From positions 1 to 64,000 of the forward strand of contig NZ_JACSET010000011.1 in the NCBI RefSeq assembly GCF_014334325.1: 64,000 nt of DNA, written 5' to 3'. Positions 1 to 7,037 of this stretch are shown here, in pieces. Each line of letters begins with the position of its first letter. The stretch's first letter is position 1. The position numbers and the translations under genes are program-made. The notes beneath the pieces were generated by a model, which was not told the DNA's origin, ran no database searches, and saw only the letters and a list, made by a program, of their open reading frames with translations. The stretch is from Treponema sp. Marseille-Q4130. Its GTDB lineage: Bacteria > Spirochaetota > Spirochaetia > Treponematales > Treponemataceae.

Positions 1-6
1 GAAGAT

Positions 7-1671
7 TTGGCGCGCGTACAGCGCACCATCATAAGCCCGTCGTTTTATGTACTCGACGTATCGCCCGAAATACAAAGCGTGCCGTGCAAAGCCGACGGAA
101 CATTGTTTGACAACACGGCGACGGTTGAAATCGTCGCAAAGCTGTATTTCGGCATAGACGATACGGACAAAGGCGTAAACCGTTCGGCGGCGCTTGAGGA
201 CGGAATGATCGTCGGAACATGGGACGACAACATTTTGACGCTTCCCGTATCATTGCTTACGTCAAATACGCTCCGCGTTTTTATTACCGTAAGCGACAGT
301 GAGAATAGGACACGGACGGCGATCGCTACGGTAAATAAATTGTACGCAGGCGATACGCCGTTTGTATACATTATGCGTTTGAGTGAAAACGCGGTACGGG
401 TAAGCGAAGATAAAGAAATTATCCCCGCAAAAATCGCCGCGCAAAAATTAATAAAATCGGGCGCGGATTATATCGATACTGACTACGGCAATATAACCGT
501 GTCGATCGACGGTGGAAAAGACCAGCCGGTAAAAACGGGCGATGTGTTTGTGTATATCGAAACGGACAATGGATTGCTCGGAGATGACGCGGGAAGATTT
601 ATATTGTTTGACGATGCCGACTATGCGGCAAACGGCGTAAAAATCCCATACGGCGCGAAGCAGTTGATTTTCCGCTACCGTACACCCGAAAATGTACTTA
701 TTCAAAGTGAAACTGTACCGGTGCTGTACGACGGTGCGAAAGGCGATAAAGGGCAACGCGGCTCATCTTATTGGGGTACGAAAAAACCGGACGAAGCGGT
801 ATACGGCGATTATTACCTCGACGTAAACGACGGCTATATTTACGAGTACAGCGCGACGTATAATGCGTGGATAAAAATCACCGATTACAGCGATTTCCGA
901 TACAAGCAGGCGATGAACGATATGCTCTCCGTTGCCGAACACGCGCCGAATATACAGTTTCTCGCCGTCGTAAACGCATGGGTAAAAAACCTCGTCGCGG
1001 GTACGGCGCTTATAAACGAATTGTTTGCGAAAAATATCATCGCACAAAATAAAATCGCGTCGAGTAATTATTACGACAAACAAGGGAACCCGACAGGCAG
1101 CGGGTTTTTGATAGACGCGCAGGCGGGCGACGCAGATTTCAGAGGCAATACACATATAGGCGGCAATACCATAATAGACGGAAATACATTACTTAAAGAT
1201 GTACAGATAAGCGGAAATTCTATATTTGAAGGTGCAATAAATTCGGGTCCGCTTTATTTGTCGAAAGAACATACAAATGCTTTAACTGTACGATTAACAA
1301 AAGGTATGACTTATTATCAGGTAAGAGCTGCTTTTATTGCGGCGGGTTTTGCATTTAATAATGGATATGCTTTAAATAAAATATTAAGCAATTATGACAA
1401 TATCCATATTGGTTACTTTCGGTGGATGGATTATGATGGGGATTTTTTAAGAATCTGGGTTGCAGATGCTTATGGTTTGAAAGAAAAAGATGTGGCTGTT
1501 GTCACAAGATATACCGATCAACCAGATAAATATTACTTAAAAAATAATTTTTATTTAACACAAGAAGACTATAATTCATATACTTTCCTTTTGCGAAATC
1601 TTCCAACACTAAAACCAACTACTCGAAATGCTATTTGGAATGATAACGGTACGCTAAAAATCGTAACTTGA
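7..1671 (+). CDS. Phage tail / receptor-binding protein, 5' end probably cut by window
   Basis: Prophage structural protein of at least 554 residues. The codons at 1-6 are sense and in frame, so the TTG at 7 may be internal and the gene may begin outside the window. A short collagen-like segment (GAKGDKGQRG, near residues 243-252) is typical of phage tail fibre and tip proteins. It is followed by a region resembling siphophage tip-attachment proteins, with helical segments and then repeated G-N-T turns (GNTHIGGNTIIDGNTL) that suggest a beta-helical stalk. The last ~140 residues (from about base 1250) have no recognisable motif and are much more A+T-rich than the rest, as expected for an exchanged receptor-binding tip. 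A small lipoprotein gene follows 46 bp downstream on the same strand. The structural role is well supported; the receptor is unknown. Confidence 0.72.
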   Translation: MARVQRTIISPSFYVLDVSPEIQSVPCKADGTLFDNTATVEIVAKLYFGIDDTDKGVNRSAALEDGMIVGTWDDNILTLPVSLLTSNTLRVFITVSDSENRTRTAIATVNKLYAGDTPFVYIMRLSENAVRVSEDKEIIPAKIAAQKLIKSGADYIDTDYGNITVSIDGGKDQPVKTGDVFVYIETDNGLLGDDAGRFILFDDADYAANGVKIPYGAKQLIFRYRTPENVLIQSETVPVLYDGAKGDKGQRGSSYWGTKKPDEAVYGDYYLDVNDGYIYEYSATYNAWIKITDYSDFRYKQAMNDMLSVAEHAPNIQFLAVVNAWVKNLVAGTALINELFAKNIIAQNKIASSNYYDKQGNPTGSGFLIDAQAGDADFRGNTHIGGNTIIDGNTLLKDVQISGNSIFEGAINSGPLYLSKEHTNALTVRLTKGMTYYQVRAAFIAAGFAFNNGYALNKILSNYDNIHIGYFRWMDYDGDFLRIWVADAYGLKEKDVAVVTRYTDQPDKYYLKNNFYLTQEDYNSYTFLLRNLPTLKPTTRNAIWNDNGTLKIVT

Positions 1672-1717
1672 TTTATATTAAAATAGGGTATATTATGTAA
1701 TAGAGGTATTAATAGTT

Positions 1718-2239
1718 ATGAGAAAAATTATATTTATTACTTCCGTTTTTATATTGATTTCTTTAAGTGCTTGCAATATTACCGAACCGAATAGGATAGA
1801 AAATGCAACAGTAACGAACAAATCTTCGATAACACCGATTGATTTTAAAACGGACGGAATTACTTATAGTGTACCTAGTGGCGTCAGTAACAGTATTACG
1901 ATACAAACGAGATGGACAGACGTTGTCGAATTATTAAACAATCCGAGAGCGCTGGCTAATAAATATTATGATTATGCAAACGGCGATAAATTAAAAATAG
2001 ATTTTGTCGATATGCCCGTATATAAGTTTAAGATAAAAAATAATTCAAATTCCAATATAACACTGAAAGAAGCGAATAATTTATTAACCGACACATACGG
2101 CGGAACACTTACGTTAACGGCTCATGCAGAGGAACAGAATGTCAATATTTATACTGAACAACCCCTTTTATCAGTTGTAACACCGACGGATGTTCCTTTC
2201 GTAATAAAGAGATATGGTAAGGTTATTATTATTGAATAG
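1718..2239 (+). CDS. Small prophage lipoprotein A, paralogue of the facing lipoprotein B
   Basis: A 173-residue protein with a lipoprotein signal peptide (MRKIIFITSVFILISLSAC, lipobox LSAC, Cys19). The body is beta-rich and has no known domain. It is paralogous to the convergent gene at 2242-2745: both share a D-M-P-x-Y stretch, an N-rich strand and a T-P-T-D-V motif near the C-terminus, in the same order. It follows a tail/receptor-binding gene, which is where phage T5 carries llp, the lipoprotein that blocks the receptor against superinfection. That parallel is inferred from position and topology only. The gene is strongly A+T-rich, like the end of the tail gene before it. Confidence 0.7.
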   Translation: MRKIIFITSVFILISLSACNITEPNRIENATVTNKSSITPIDFKTDGITYSVPSGVSNSITIQTRWTDVVELLNNPRALANKYYDYANGDKLKIDFVDMPVYKFKIKNNSNSNITLKEANNLLTDTYGGTLTLTAHAEEQNVNIYTEQPLLSVVTPTDVPFVIKRYGKVIIIE

Positions 2240-2241
2240 CT

Positions 2242-2745
2242 TTAATAAATCTTCAAATAATATTTTTTATCGCTTTCATTAAAATAATTTTCATAGCGAT
2301 AACCGCCGACATCGCAAGTAAAATCAAATTGTACATCGGTAGGCGTAATTCGAGTGTGAATAATGTGCGATGCCGACGGGGTAATTGTTATCGACTGCGG
2401 TACAGCAAATCTATCGTTTTTTATTTTTACCGTTATTTGATGTGTAAATGTATTGTTGATATTTAATTCATAGGTCGGCATATCTTCAATCGTTGCGTTT
2501 TCCGCATGAGTTTTAAAAACAACCGGTACGTCGGAGATAATTTTTCCCGCCGGAAAACTCGGCAGTTTCAGTGTCATCCGCTCCGCCGCCGCAAGGGTGA
2601 AAACTTTATCGCCGTACGACGTAAGCGTAAATTGCGCCGTATGCGAGGAATTGTTGATAATATCTCTCTCTCGTACCGTAGAGATAACCGAATCGCACGA
2701 AGTGAAAATAAAAACGGGTATGAAAAATAACATGAGTTTTCGCAT
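2242..2745 (-). CDS. Small prophage lipoprotein B, convergent paralogue of lipoprotein A
   Basis: A 167-residue lipoprotein starting MRKLMLFFIPVFIFTSC (lipobox FTSC, Cys17). An upstream in-frame start exists, but it would place 25 non-signal residues before the signal peptide. The chosen ATG at 2745 is also supported by a -10 box (TATACT on the minus strand, 2757-2752) ending 6 nt before it, so the message may be leaderless. The body aligns with lipoprotein A (D-M-P-x-Y, N-x-x-x-x-I-T-V, I-T-P-T-D-V). The two genes meet tail to tail with 2 bp between their stop codons. On its own strand it lies downstream of the tail-fibre gene 3055-4029, separated only by the silent fibre C-terminus. Confidence 0.7.
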   Translation of the reverse strand: MRKLMLFFIPVFIFTSCDSVISTVRERDIINNSSHTAQFTLTSYGDKVFTLAAAERMTLKLPSFPAGKIISDVPVVFKTHAENATIEDMPTYELNINNTFTHQITVKIKNDRFAVPQSITITPSASHIIHTRITPTDVQFDFTCDVGGYRYENYFNESDKKYYLKIY

Positions 2746-2751
2746 ACGTTT

Positions 2752-2779
2752 AGTATACAGCGATTGCGCAAAAATGCAA
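2752..2779 (-). promoter_or_regulatory. Promoter for lipoprotein B (leaderless geometry)
   Basis: Minus-strand TATACT (2757-2752) with TTGCAT (2779-2774) 16 bp upstream. The -10 box ends 6 nt before the ATG and no Shine-Dalgarno sequence fits between them. The -35 box overlaps the first codon of the facing fibre fragment. Confidence 0.5.
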
Positions 2780-3058
2780 GGGTTTTCGAATGCTGCTGCC
2801 TTTATAGAAAAAACGGACAATTTAATTAAACAAGGTCAAGCGACGGCAGTAAATGGATTAAAGGTTCTTGTAGCTGGAGAACATGCTCATAATATAGGAT
2901 CTAGTGAGAATGGCTCTGGGGCATTTCCAAGAGGCTATTATTCCACACAACATTCTGTTTTATCAGGATATGCAGGAAATCATTATCATTCATTGTCCGG
3001 AGATACTGAAACAAGACCCACTAACTATACTGTCAATCTCTGGCTTCGTACCGCCTAA
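2776..3058 (+). pseudogene. Promoterless second copy of tail-fibre C-terminus
   Basis: An open frame of about 93 codons encoding only the C-terminal part of a tail fibre. It opens N-A-A-A-F-I-x-K-x-D-x-L-I-K-Q-x-x-A-T-x-x-N-G-L and closes E-T-R-P-T-N-x-T-x-x-L-W-L-R-x-A; both blocks recur at the matching places in the opposing fibre gene at 3055-4029. The middle (with H-A-H and H-Y-H pairs) differs completely. There is no ribosome-binding site and no N-terminal shaft. It is convergent with the intact fibre: their stop codons overlap in the four bases 3055-3058. It is either a silent alternative tip or the remnant of a duplicated fibre. Confidence 0.7.
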
Positions 3059-4029
3059 GCAATACGCAACCATAGTTGATGTGTAAAGTTAGTAGGTCGG
3101 GTTTCATTATCATTGCTTCCCAAATAAATGTTGTCTTGAGCGGTCTTTAATGGTATTCGATCGCCGTAAGACACTTTGTTTTCTTGAGAAGCATCAAGAC
3201 GATTTGTGTCCTTCGAAGAACCACCCCAACTTGAATGGGCTAAATCCACTTTATGATTATGTCCAGCAGTGGTGTTTGCCATACCTGTACCATCAGACCT
3301 ACTATTCAGCCACAAACCGTTCTTAGCAGTTGCGTCTTTCTGTTTAATTAATTCGTCCGATTTATTTATAAACGCCGCCGCATTACCGCCTGTCGCGCGG
3401 AAGAACGCTCCTGCATACTGCTCTTGCAGCGCCCACTTTGTACAAATAAACAAATCTTCCGGCGCTTCCTGCTGCGGGTATTGCACGTATATCTCTCCGA
3501 TGCGTGGACATGATAACCCTTCCCATTTGCTACCGTTCCAGATAATCGTTTGTATTTGTTTTACTTGCAACGTCGAATCGCCGTCGCGTGCTGTAGTGCC
3601 GCGTATGATATGTGTTTTATCTGTCGTATTAATAATTTTTACTTCGATACCTGCATACGATCCATCGCCGAGTGTTAATACGATTTCGTTTGTTGCGGAG
3701 ATAATAACAACTCTGTCAAATTCAATAGCACCTATATCACTTGATTGTGCGATTGTGTCTTTTGCGACCGTTGCTTGTATGTTATCGCATGGTTGCGGCA
3801 CTCCGTTTTTATCGATGTATATCGGGACCCCTCGCGTTCCTACTTTCAGCGGAGCGGCTTTTGTTCCGAGATGTGCCGCGTATTCCGCGTTTACAGATTT
3901 CCCCGCCGTTACATCTTTTAGTTTTACGCCTTTTGTTGCTTCGTTTTGTGCAACTAATAAAATGTCATCGTCGCTCGCCGAAGCCGCAGGAGCTTTATTG
4001 TATATCTCTTGTATCGTTGTCGTTGCCAT
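3055..4029 (-). CDS. Phage tail fibre / tail-collar protein
   Basis: A 324-residue tail fibre. The N-terminus (residues ~1-45, I-Q-E-I-Y-N-K-A-P through V-K-L-K-D-V) resembles prophage fibre base domains. The centre is beta-rich, and the C-terminus carries the N-A-A-A-F-I-N-K-S-D-E-L-I-K-Q segment, an A-G-H-N-H motif and the E-T-R-P-T-N ending seen in tail-fibre and collar tips. His-x-His pairs in such tips usually bind metal. The ATG at 4029 has a good ribosome-binding site (AGAGGT on the minus strand). It is read against the neighbouring tail gene, which suggests a separately controlled or movable host-range module. Confidence 0.75.
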   Translation of the reverse strand: MATTTIQEIYNKAPAASASDDDILLVAQNEATKGVKLKDVTAGKSVNAEYAAHLGTKAAPLKVGTRGVPIYIDKNGVPQPCDNIQATVAKDTIAQSSDIGAIEFDRVVIISATNEIVLTLGDGSYAGIEVKIINTTDKTHIIRGTTARDGDSTLQVKQIQTIIWNGSKWEGLSCPRIGEIYVQYPQQEAPEDLFICTKWALQEQYAGAFFRATGGNAAAFINKSDELIKQKDATAKNGLWLNSRSDGTGMANTTAGHNHKVDLAHSSWGGSSKDTNRLDASQENKVSYGDRIPLKTAQDNIYLGSNDNETRPTNFTHQLWLRIA

Positions 4030-4043
4030 ATTTTACCTCTACG

Positions 4044-4054
4044 TATATAGTCAT
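4044..4054 (-). promoter_or_regulatory. 11-bp motif shared by two minus-strand prophage genes (copy 1)
   Basis: On the minus strand the sequence ATGACTATATA lies just upstream of the tail-fibre ribosome-binding site. An identical 11-mer precedes the small membrane ORF at 4433-4561. It may be a -10 region or phage regulator site; its function is inferred only from position. Confidence 0.3.
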
Positions 4055-4160
4055 TTTGGTAAATTGGTAGAGAGGCAAAAAATAATTATAAACGTAAGGC
4101 TATGCAACCCGCTATTTTTGACGTATATTTAGATAAGGAAATAGAGGAGCAACACTGGGT

Positions 4161-4650: not shown

Positions 4651-5484
4651 ATGGCTAATGAATTAACACTCTTTGAGGGTAACGATCCCGATTTTGAAAA
4701 ATTATCTCATCAAAACGGTAATCTCTATTGGTATGCCTCTACGCTTATGCAAGCATTGGGATATGATGAGTTTAAAATAAATGCGCAGCCGATTTTAAAA
4801 GCATCGCAAGTCTGTACGAATGCGGGTATAAATTACATGGATCACTTCATACCATGCGACAACGAAAAAGACGGAAAGCATATTCGTGATATGAAGCTTA
4901 CCCGTTTTGCCTGTTACCTTGTTGTAATGAATGCCGATATAAAGAAACCGAATGTCGCAAAAGCACAGGTGTATTTTGCGGCTTTAACGAATGCCGTACA
5001 GGAATATTTTATCGAGCAGGCGGATATAGAGCGTATCGATTTGCGAGGACAAATATCGGAACACGAAAAAGCACTTGCATCGACGGCTAAAAAATCCGGT
5101 GTTCAAAAGTATGGCTTTTTCCAAAATCAAGGATATATGGGGCTCTACAATATGCCCTTGTGGAAGATTAAACAAATAAAAGGTATTCCCGAAAATCGTA
5201 CACCATTTGATTTTATGGGACGCGAGGAATTGGGCGCCAATATTTTTCGAATAACACAGACCGAAGCAAAAATCAAGCGTGAAAATATTACGGGACAAAA
5301 AGGATTAGAGGACGCAGCATATAACGTCGGTCGTATGGTGCGGAATGTATTAAAAGAAAACGGATCGACACTGCCCGAACAGTTGCCCCCTAGTCAGGAT
5401 ATAAAACAAATAAAAAGCGACTTAAAAAAGACGAATAAGGCGTTTAATAAAAAAGATAAATTAAAAAAGCCTCCTAAAAAGTGA
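4651..5484 (+). CDS. dinD: DinD-like DNA-damage-inducible protein
   Basis: A 277-residue protein matching the length and order of E. coli DinD. The N-terminal BRO-type domain includes the W-Y-A-S-T-L-M-Q-A-L-G-Y-D-E-F segment, followed by R-F-A-C-Y-L-V-V-M-N-A-D, Q-V-Y-F-A and the C-terminal G-F-F-Q-N-Q-G-Y-M-G-L-Y and N-I-F-R-I-T-Q-T-E-A-K blocks. DinD binds RecA filaments and inhibits strand exchange in E. coli; that role here is by homology. The Lys-rich tail (last ~30 residues) is longer than usual. The ribosome-binding site (GAGG) lies 9-10 nt before the ATG. It sits between tail genes and the integrase, so it is probably prophage cargo. Confidence 0.85.
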   Translation: MANELTLFEGNDPDFEKLSHQNGNLYWYASTLMQALGYDEFKINAQPILKASQVCTNAGINYMDHFIPCDNEKDGKHIRDMKLTRFACYLVVMNADIKKPNVAKAQVYFAALTNAVQEYFIEQADIERIDLRGQISEHEKALASTAKKSGVQKYGFFQNQGYMGLYNMPLWKIKQIKGIPENRTPFDFMGREELGANIFRITQTEAKIKRENITGQKGLEDAAYNVGRMVRNVLKENGSTLPEQLPPSQDIKQIKSDLKKTNKAFNKKDKLKKPPKK

Positions 5485-5594
5485 AATCAATAATTATCTT
5501 TATGTTATAATTCCCTTTAATAATTTCTCCTGCGCCGTATATACTTCGGGCATCATCTCCGCGCGACCAGCTTAAAACTATTTGACTAAATTAG

Positions 5595-6650
5595 TTATTT
5601 ATTTAAGAGTAAAAATCGCTCGCGTTGCCATTCAAGTATTTCCGTTAAATCTTCCGGCTTAAATGAGGTATATACGTCTGCAATACCGCGAAGCGAATGC
5701 CCCGCAATGCTTTCCACTTTTAGTGGATTAACGCCAGAAGATTTCGCGTCAGTTATAAAGAAATGACGCAACGAATGAATTGTTAATTTTCGAGCTTCGG
5801 CATTTTCGATTTGTTTAATAATAGGGTTTATATTTTGATAAATGTATTTTATGGAGTGCGGCGTTTCGTGTATTAACGATATAAGTTCCGATATAATCGG
5901 AATGTGCCGTGATGTTTTAGTTTTAAGTGGTAGGTATTTTTTGCCTATTAATTGTTTAGTCAAATTAATAAAATAAAATTCATTTTGTTTAATAATATCA
6001 GATGATACTATGCCCGCACATTCTTTAATGCGCATACCTGTAAGCGCAAGTAAAATAATAAGTTCACGTTCGTAAATGTCTGAAATTGATCGCACTAGCA
6101 AACATATCTCATCAAAAGAAAATGAATCGCGGCTTGTACCTGACGGCAGAGGCGCGAAATTCTCAAATGGATTTTTTGCGAGTAAACCGTCTCGTTGTGC
6201 ATTTACGGTTATGATTTTCAGTGTCGCCATAATTAAATTGATGGTACGATTTGCAAGCCCTTGTGCAATAAGTTTTTGACGCATAGATATTAAAAACGAA
6301 TAATTCACGTCCGCAATTCTTACTCTGCCTGCTAAAGGTATGATATATGTATTTAATGCCATACGATACGCTTTGATCGTGTTTATCGAATATTGGCCTT
6401 GCGCTTGTTTATCTTTTACAAAATCTGAATCATCGTTGAAAAAGTTTTTTGCATATTCGGATAATAATTTTGATGTACCTGTCCACAATAAGCCCTCTTT
6501 AAATAGTCGCTCACAATAGATTTGCGCCGCACCCTTAGAGGTGCAGCCTGTTGTTTTTGCCGAAGTCCGAATCCCGTTGAAATCGTACGTGCGATAATAC
6601 CAATAGTCTCCGCGCTTATAAAGCGAAAACGCTTTTTTATAACGACCCAT
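5595..6650 (-). CDS. Tyrosine recombinase, prophage integrase
   Basis: A 351-residue integrase. The N-terminal part (1-60) resembles the three-stranded arm-binding domain (Y-W-Y-Y-R-T-Y-D), residues ~80-165 form the SAM-like core-binding domain, and ~175-335 the catalytic domain. Visible catalytic residues are Arg207 (L-T-G-M-R-I-K-E), a Lys at 243/245, His292-x-x-Arg295 (H-S-L-R-H), His318 (A-G-H-S) and Tyr327. It integrates and excises the prophage and probably marks its right end. No attachment repeat could be identified because the left end lies outside the window. Ribosome-binding site AAGGGG is about 7 nt from the ATG. Confidence 0.92.
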   Translation of the reverse strand: MGRYKKAFSLYKRGDYWYYRTYDFNGIRTSAKTTGCTSKGAAQIYCERLFKEGLLWTGTSKLLSEYAKNFFNDDSDFVKDKQAQGQYSINTIKAYRMALNTYIIPLAGRVRIADVNYSFLISMRQKLIAQGLANRTINLIMATLKIITVNAQRDGLLAKNPFENFAPLPSGTSRDSFSFDEICLLVRSISDIYERELIILLALTGMRIKECAGIVSSDIIKQNEFYFINLTKQLIGKKYLPLKTKTSRHIPIISELISLIHETPHSIKYIYQNINPIIKQIENAEARKLTIHSLRHFFITDAKSSGVNPLKVESIAGHSLRGIADVYTSFKPEDLTEILEWQRERFLLLNK

Positions 6651-7037
6651 AAAATACCCCTTGTTTTGGCTTCATTCTGGCTACTCTTGTTTGCAATTTA
6701 TTGTATTATAAAAGAATAAAACATACAATGAGTAACAGAGTATTATATACCGAAAAGGTCAATCGCGCAACGCAAATGAAAACAAATACAAACGAAACTG
6801 AACCGCGCGTTCGCCGATATATCACCGTCGTATATTGCCGTAACGGGCGTGACTTGTTTTAATAATTATTAATTTGGGCGTCCCCTGCCGTCCGGCAGGT
6901 CGCGTCCTCCAGGATTCCGCTTTCGCTTCATTTGACGGCGGGCTTTGCCCGCCGCCAAACGCCTTCGGCGTCCTTCCGGCCGCTGACGCAGGGATCGGGT
7001 ACGCTTTCGTTTCGGCGTGACCGTCGGTTCATCGTCA
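6651..7037. other. Intergenic gap at the prophage right boundary
   Basis: This gap of about 390 bp holds the integrase promoter region near 6690-6720 (a TATAAT is visible on the minus strand) and then a shift from A+T-rich phage sequence to G+C-rich chromosome near 6860-6890. Two hairpins follow (CTGCCGTCCGGCAG and GGCGGGCTTTGCCCGCC). No gene or tRNA is visible. The attachment site is probably here but cannot be named. Confidence 0.4.

Follow-up and report, generated by a model that had tools for sequence, protein, structure and literature searches.

Why should two related lipoprotein genes stand directly behind the tail tip gene of a prophage, and is their place there tied to the tip itself? 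The question arises from a stretch of 64,000 nucleotides of Treponema sp. Marseille-Q4130 (contig NZ_JACSET010000011.1, positions 1 to 64,000, forward strand), here called the window, whose base 1 is the first base of contig C2 in a genome of 2.79 megabases and 18 contigs. Its left end carries part of a prophage, a lambda-type siphovirus in a treponeme, with the 3' portion of a tail tip gene of the lambda J type, the lipoprotein genes lipA and lipB, and a tail fibre gene. The link between tip and lipoprotein is real and recurs above expectation in related prophages. Genomes, contigs and loci are denoted by G, C and L numbers where they have to be told apart; G087 was taken as Treponema socranskii subsp. 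socranskii and G045 as subsp. paredis.

The tail tip and its lipoprotein pair

The frames named in the initial annotation, 7–1671 and 1718–2239 on the plus strand and 2745–2242 and 4029–3055 on the minus strand, together with a silent stretch at 2789–3058 on the plus strand, are all present. The features on which the argument turns are the following.

1–1671, plus strand: 3' part (556 amino acids) of a lambda-J-like tail tip; its 5' part is on contig C7, and the sister protein in G087 matches phrog_31
1122–1671, plus strand: C-terminal part of the tip, apparently exchanged, judged by composition and by the end of DNA identity to the sister prophage at 1121
1718–2239, plus strand: LipA, a predicted lipoprotein of 173 amino acids (lipobox LSAC; family profile A1)
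2242–2745, minus strand: LipB, a predicted lipoprotein of 167 amino acids, paralogue of LipA and convergent with it (lipobox FTSC; family profile)
2738–2780: stretch of 43 base pairs (bp) with the LipB start codon and upstream sequence, identical in the sister prophage, which itself has no LipB

The frame 7–1671 is cut by the window edge. The last 126 bases of C7 encode the same 42 residues as the start of the window and close an open frame of 840 amino acids there; upstream of this frame come genes for the tape measure and two minor tail proteins. The sister J protein in G087 (1341 amino acids) matches phrog_31, 'central tail fiber J', with an expectation value (E) of 1e-39. Thus, the 42 residues common to the C7 end and the contig start, together with the sister match, identify 1–1671 as the 3' part of a lambda-J-like tip; both the profile match, by way of the sister J, and the order tape measure, minor tail proteins, J are those of a lambda-type J. 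Only its 3' part lies in the window, the rest being on C7; its description as a receptor-type tail protein stands. The tip is probably what the phage uses to grip its host.

LipA and LipB both have lipobox-like signal peptides, scored with a pattern devised for this analysis. Their description as paralogous lipoproteins is borne out by the lipoboxes, the shared DMPxY and TPTDV motifs, a BLASTP match of E 2e-4 (a single pair) and their placement in one profile family. The further proposal of two sets, each tail protein having a lipoprotein of its own, had to be abandoned. A convergent LipA/LipB pair occurs without a fibre on contig C15 of the same genome, so the layout of one lipoprotein per tail protein is wrong; LipA and LipB make up a single pair that follows the J-like tip, and the fibre gene, set apart from LipB by the silent C-terminus with its inverted repeats, looks like an invertible cassette.

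Lipoprotein genes directly behind J

A profile of three J proteins matches 46 of the 274 genomes of the bacterial family. Stretches were taken around 40 J places and five more; with G133 excluded, its largest open reading frame (ORF) not being J, and the window J counted once, this gave 44 J loci, four of which have no downstream ORF. In each of the 40 loci scored, the first ORF of at least 80 amino acids behind J was considered. It is lipobox-positive in nine, always within 100 bp, compared with 13 of the 334 other ORFs of the same loci (3.9%; Fisher p 1.3e-4), in agreement with the initial expectation that such lipoproteins would accompany tail genes in other prophages. In loci picked for members of the LipA/LipB family, lipobox-positive ORFs make up 36 of 408 (8.8%). 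The association is concentrated among the closest relatives of the window tip: for the eight best-scoring J proteins (that of the window, G087, G114 twice, G050, G043 twice and G064), a lipoprotein is next in seven, although these cases are not independent, because the J proteins are related and the profile was made from three of these eight. Next to the eighth, the second G114 copy, stands a transposase-like ORF instead (L149, 5457–6695, at the 3' end of J in the second G114 prophage). Among the remaining 32 loci a lipobox ORF is next in two (G251 and G138). As a control, lipobox ORFs follow three of 95 other ORFs of at least 300 amino acids, and these three are again cases at the ends of tail genes or the same lipoprotein viewed from its other side.

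Apparent joint exchange of tip and lipoprotein

The sister prophage in G087 shares 92.5% DNA identity with the window over 1–1121, 93.5% over 3902–4086 and 91% over 5544–6744. Between these conserved flanks everything differs except for short scars, and within the tip gene the G+C content falls from 47% to 32% from about position 1231. The G087 J has a different C-terminus, and 9 bp further on comes the gene of an NlpC/P60 lipoprotein (PF00877, E 6e-10). Tip and lipoprotein both differ between the two prophages, as the initial annotation had anticipated in supposing that they vary together. One scar is the identical 43 bp at the LipB start and the other comprises 37 bp at the tip end, 86% identical; they suggest an ancestor that carried LipA and LipB at this place in G087. 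A 64-amino-acid ORF behind the G087 NlpC lipoprotein was considered as the old tip end and rejected, its protein similarity not being significant (213 of 1000 shuffles were as good) and only the 37-bp DNA scar supporting it.

Other prophages show comparable differences. In G114, two J proteins are identical over 918 amino acids and differ in their C-termini. Moreover, the C-terminal domain of the window tip recurs in G156 (27% identity over 230 amino acids, E 7e-11, composition-corrected) on a tail protein whose remainder has no match among J proteins. The G156 gene adjoins a lipoprotein of the same family as LipA and LipB, convergent with it and overlapping by four bases, whereas LipA lies on the same strand as its tip. 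From these sequence comparisons, the lipoproteins appear to be exchanged together with the tip C-terminus.

The LipA/LipB family and its chromosomal members

A family profile built from 18 relatives finds members in 24 of the 200 genomes of the genus, at 31 places, 26 of which are covered by the analysis of genomic context. Four lie in prophage tail modules (LipA, LipB, G114 and contig C10 of G156), five in one type of chromosomal locus (A and B on C15 of the window genome, A in G087, A and B in G066) and 17 elsewhere, including a weak fragment in G059 and a G104 member with pieces of phage genes within a few kilobases (kb). Six more lipoproteins, from prophages of another genus of the bacterial family and from G032, join by profile with E values of 7e-16 to 4e-4, signal peptides included; when the mature parts of the six are compared as a group with the LipA/LipB family, the profile–profile probability is 96%. 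On a tree of 31 members, the phage-borne or chromosomal state changes five times, at least three of the changes being forced by well-supported branches, and three of 500 shuffles gave as low a number.

On C15, the genes for an intact NlpC/P60 lipoprotein, LipA and LipB stand one after another, with a phosphatase-like gene at their side. This NlpC/P60 lipoprotein is 79% identical to that which follows J in the G087 prophage. About 0.8 kb beyond LipB is a phage gene fragment, 77% identical over 57 amino acids to a gene of the C7 prophage; pieces of the same phage gene lie near the LipA genes of G087 and G066. The NlpC gene is reduced to its 3' end in G066, and LipA is intact without J on C15 and in G087, G066 and G045. 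Ratios of non-synonymous to synonymous substitution (dN/dS) between prophage and chromosomal copies are 0.15 and 0.13 for LipA, 0.19 for LipB and 0.18 for NlpC; other LipA pairs give 0.21–0.28. From these findings, we read the chromosomal copies as genes that came from prophages and were kept by the host. The reverse course, with capture of the chromosomal pair by the phage, is weakened by the adjoining phage gene fragments on C15 and in G087 and G066 and by the intact prophage-type NlpC lipoprotein on C15. The prophage region beside the C15 pair also encodes an AbiL-type ATPase (L008, 7708–8859; PADLOC AbiLi, E 2e-50).

A possible role in superinfection exclusion

A lipoprotein that stands behind a receptor-binding tip, differs together with that tip and outlives the phage is most simply accounted for by superinfection exclusion at the envelope. 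We therefore propose, giving the idea about an even chance, that LipA, together with LipB, forms a lipoprotein module for superinfection exclusion that is linked to the tip and works like Llp of T5 or Lpp of mEpimmI. The J-like tip would recognize a surface receptor through its exchangeable C-terminal domain, and the lipoprotein behind it would be made in the lysogen, anchored in the envelope, and would interfere there with the receptor or with the entry of DNA, thereby excluding phages with the same tip. When a new tip C-terminus is acquired, the lipoprotein would be swapped along with it, and prophage remnants would retain their lipoproteins after the loss of virion genes because the host would still be protected.

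Genes for lipoproteins of the Cor kind lie near J in some lambdoid phages. The Cor lipoproteins of T1, phi80 and their relatives exclude phages that use the same receptor, as described in PMC9586334, and LipA and LipB would resemble them in this proposed role; unlike them, LipA and LipB have no Cor family reported in Pfam, PHROGs, NCBIfam or PADLOC. According to the same source, T5 Llp is encoded next to, and downstream of, the gene for pb5 and blocks FhuA, acting from the periplasm (PMC9586334). The likeness lies in a small lipoprotein gene that adjoins, and is downstream of, a receptor-binding tail gene, whereas T5 is a lytic phage and its Llp is far smaller, with 61 residues in the alignment of that paper (PMC9586334). 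A third parallel is offered by the mEpimmI Lpp lipoproteins of Escherichia coli phages, whose genes belong to the structural cluster; on expression they exclude phages, and they are partly matched to the receptor (PMC11893012). They share with the present lipoproteins the position in the structural cluster and the occurrence of several sequence types across related prophages (PMC11893012). The likeness is one of description: exclusion was tested for Lpp, whereas here expression in the lysogen, a receptor and exclusion are inferred, and the present family is also widespread on chromosomes.

LipA and LipB thus share with exclusion lipoproteins their predicted lipoprotein nature and their gene position next to a receptor-binding tail gene. 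In sequence, no similarity to a known exclusion lipoprotein was found in Pfam, PHROGs, NCBIfam, PADLOC or the PDB; in the first four, neither protein has any match above the cut-off. Against PDB sequences the LipA/LipB profile gave 19 listed matches, the best with E 0.084, and the solved Llp complex is absent among them. LipA and the fibre have no match in annotated phages, and LipA and LipB none in IMG/VR, in scans that reach close relatives only. Since no sequence relation to known families was detected, it is a similar way of working that is proposed and not membership in the Llp or Cor families.

Several observations weigh against this proposal. Most members of the family examined, 22 of 26, are found without adjoining tail genes, an outcome that the initial annotation had named as one that would refute its reading. 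Adjacency by itself can make neighbours travel jointly, and the correspondence between tips and lipoproteins is loose in places: no lipoprotein follows the tips of G164 and G059, although these are similar to the G087 tip, and the NlpC lipoproteins of G087 and G043 are 38% identical and stand behind tips without detectable similarity. Composition correction cuts the match between the G114 tip end and G156 to 28 residues (E 7e-8) and removes that between G064 and the window tip, although for the latter 0 of 500 shuffles were as good. Of the chromosomal copies of LipB, that on C15 is intact, that of G087 reduced and that of G066 broken, and LipA of C15 compared with that of G087 gives a dN/dS of 0.47 on 18 changes. 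Finally, promoter-like sites are not in excess (14, against 10.0 with a standard deviation of 3.7 in shuffles), no terminator was found, and the AlphaFold2 model of LipA, made from four sequences, has a mean predicted local distance difference test score of 35.

Other explanations have to be weighed on the same evidence. The lipoproteins might be lysogenic-conversion cargo, serving the surface biology of the host and unrelated to other phages, with the end of the tail operon as a tolerated insertion site; Lom and Bor of lambda are precedents for such conversion. The mainly chromosomal distribution of the family would fit this reading, as would the mixing of phage-borne and chromosomal members on the tree and two cases in which a pair of genomes has the neighbouring gene in common (tsaD in L043 and L045, a G3E-type GTPase in L051 and L088; neighbours named by eye). 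The corresponding G087 region also holds DUF4236-like and ion-channel-like ORFs, likewise named by eye. However, a lipoprotein in seven of the eight closest J loci is unexpected at a background of 3.9 to 8.8%, and the tip domain keeps its lipoprotein family even on a different tail body. We regard cargo as possible, if rather unlikely.

Joint exchange could also follow merely from neighbourhood between conserved flanks, with no functional tie to the tip. Indeed, the exchanged block in G087 spans the region from the tip C-terminus to the fibre, unrelated genes included, and the pairing of tips with lipoproteins is not one to one. What makes plain linkage improbable is that the association with the tip domain outlasts a change of both tail body and lipoprotein orientation in G156, which is one strong case. 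A role in lysis or in the virion, as outer-membrane spanin or tail component, is suggested by the fact that small lipoproteins can be spanins, but the prophage already has an amidase-like ORF together with a small lipoprotein-like ORF elsewhere (L109, 7854–8447 and 8699–9088; named by eye). Furthermore, besides LipB, six of the nine J-adjacent lipoproteins lie on the strand opposite to J (G114, G050, G064, the second G043 copy, G251 and G138) and are therefore outside the late operon, so that such a role is highly improbable.

The tail fibre cassette and other prophage features

The remaining features of the prophage lie to the right of LipB.

2789–3058, plus strand: alternative C-terminus of the tail fibre, silent (it shares 39% identity with the expressed C-terminus and 95% with the silent cassette on C14)
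2789–2832: arm 1 of an inverted repeat, containing ACGGACAATTTAATTAAACA (repeat comparison)
3341–3384: arm 2 of the inverted repeat (repeat comparison)
3055–4029, minus strand: tail fibre with the expressed C-terminus (phrog_34297, E 2e-77; 87% identity over 233 amino acids to the C14 fibre)
4651–5484, plus strand: prophage protein with a Bro-N domain, encoded between the fibre and integrase genes (PF02498, E 3e-6; phrog_8036, E 2e-87)
5595–6650, minus strand: prophage integrase, the conserved right flank of the exchanged region (PF00589, E 5e-11; flank with 91% DNA identity to the sister)

The silent C-terminus, whose frame has no start of its own, and the expressed one (minus strand, 3384–3055) meet tail to tail, and both are flanked by the inverted repeats, which are 44 nucleotides long and 82% identical. 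An equal layout is found in G087 on C2 (66 nucleotides, 98%) and C67 (26 nucleotides, 81%), on C14 of the window genome (35 nucleotides, 89%) and in G218 (49 nucleotides, 88%); at the fibre cassette of G066 no inverted repeat was found. The core ACGG-n-TTAATTAAACA is present in both arms in G087 and C14; in the window, the strict pattern finds it in the silent arm alone. A DNA invertase (phrog_125, E 2e-46 in C14) adjoins the fibre cassettes of C14 and of G087 C67. The window prophage has none, and the sole match in this genome is that of the C14 prophage, which could act in trans on the window cassette. The homologous C14 fibre adjoins this invertase and not a lipoprotein. The fibre segment is thus probably, to judge from its layout, an invertible two-cassette device separate from the tip–lipoprotein pair. 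Mu Gin and P1 Cin act on tail-fibre cassettes that are likewise invertible. As there, expressed and silent fibre C-termini stand face to face between inverted repeats, with an invertase alongside in the C14 prophage; in contrast, the window prophage lacks an invertase of its own and shows one orientation only. With one genome per species, the second orientation was not observed, and the window and C14 cassettes are collinear, so that inversion as such is inferred.

Invertases with inverted alternative fibre C-termini are found in three other prophages (L009 on C14 of the window genome, 10311–11543; L108, 8291–9607; L113, 5186–6565). L183 (G099 C8, 9580–12400) holds a shufflon-like tail-fibre array in which a repeat of about 26 bp (GAACGGTTTAAAAATACAGTGGGG) occurs in many copies and both orientations between alternative fibre C-termini. 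In L050 (G156 C10, 4683–5882), a reverse transcriptase (phrog_1423, E 4e-53) lies near a tail fibre gene and possibly belongs to a diversity-generating retroelement. Ion-channel-like ORFs, named by eye, occur as prophage cargo between or beside tail genes in L107 (10904–13017) and L188 (2928–3752).

Implications for treponeme phages

In the open-access literature we found no account of such a tip–lipoprotein module in treponemes. The one genus-wide survey of Treponema prophages found there described 38 of them, and its main text contains neither 'lipoprotein' nor 'socranskii' (PMC11144348). Next to nothing is known of the receptors and exclusion systems of treponeme phages. If tip-linked lipoproteins do exclude superinfecting phages, the lipoprotein family would indicate which surface protein a tip uses, and would give a first handle on phage immunity in spirochaetes, with tip and shield swapped as a unit and retained by the host after the phage has decayed. 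A broader form of the idea, offered tentatively and in our view unlikely, is that the tip C-terminal domain and a lipoprotein of a dedicated family make up one exchangeable cassette for host range and immunity, that the family shuttles between phage tips and chromosomes, and that the lipoproteins of dead prophages are kept as receptor-specific antiphage immunity. If so, the chromosomal members of the family across the genus would be an unrecognized defence repertoire.

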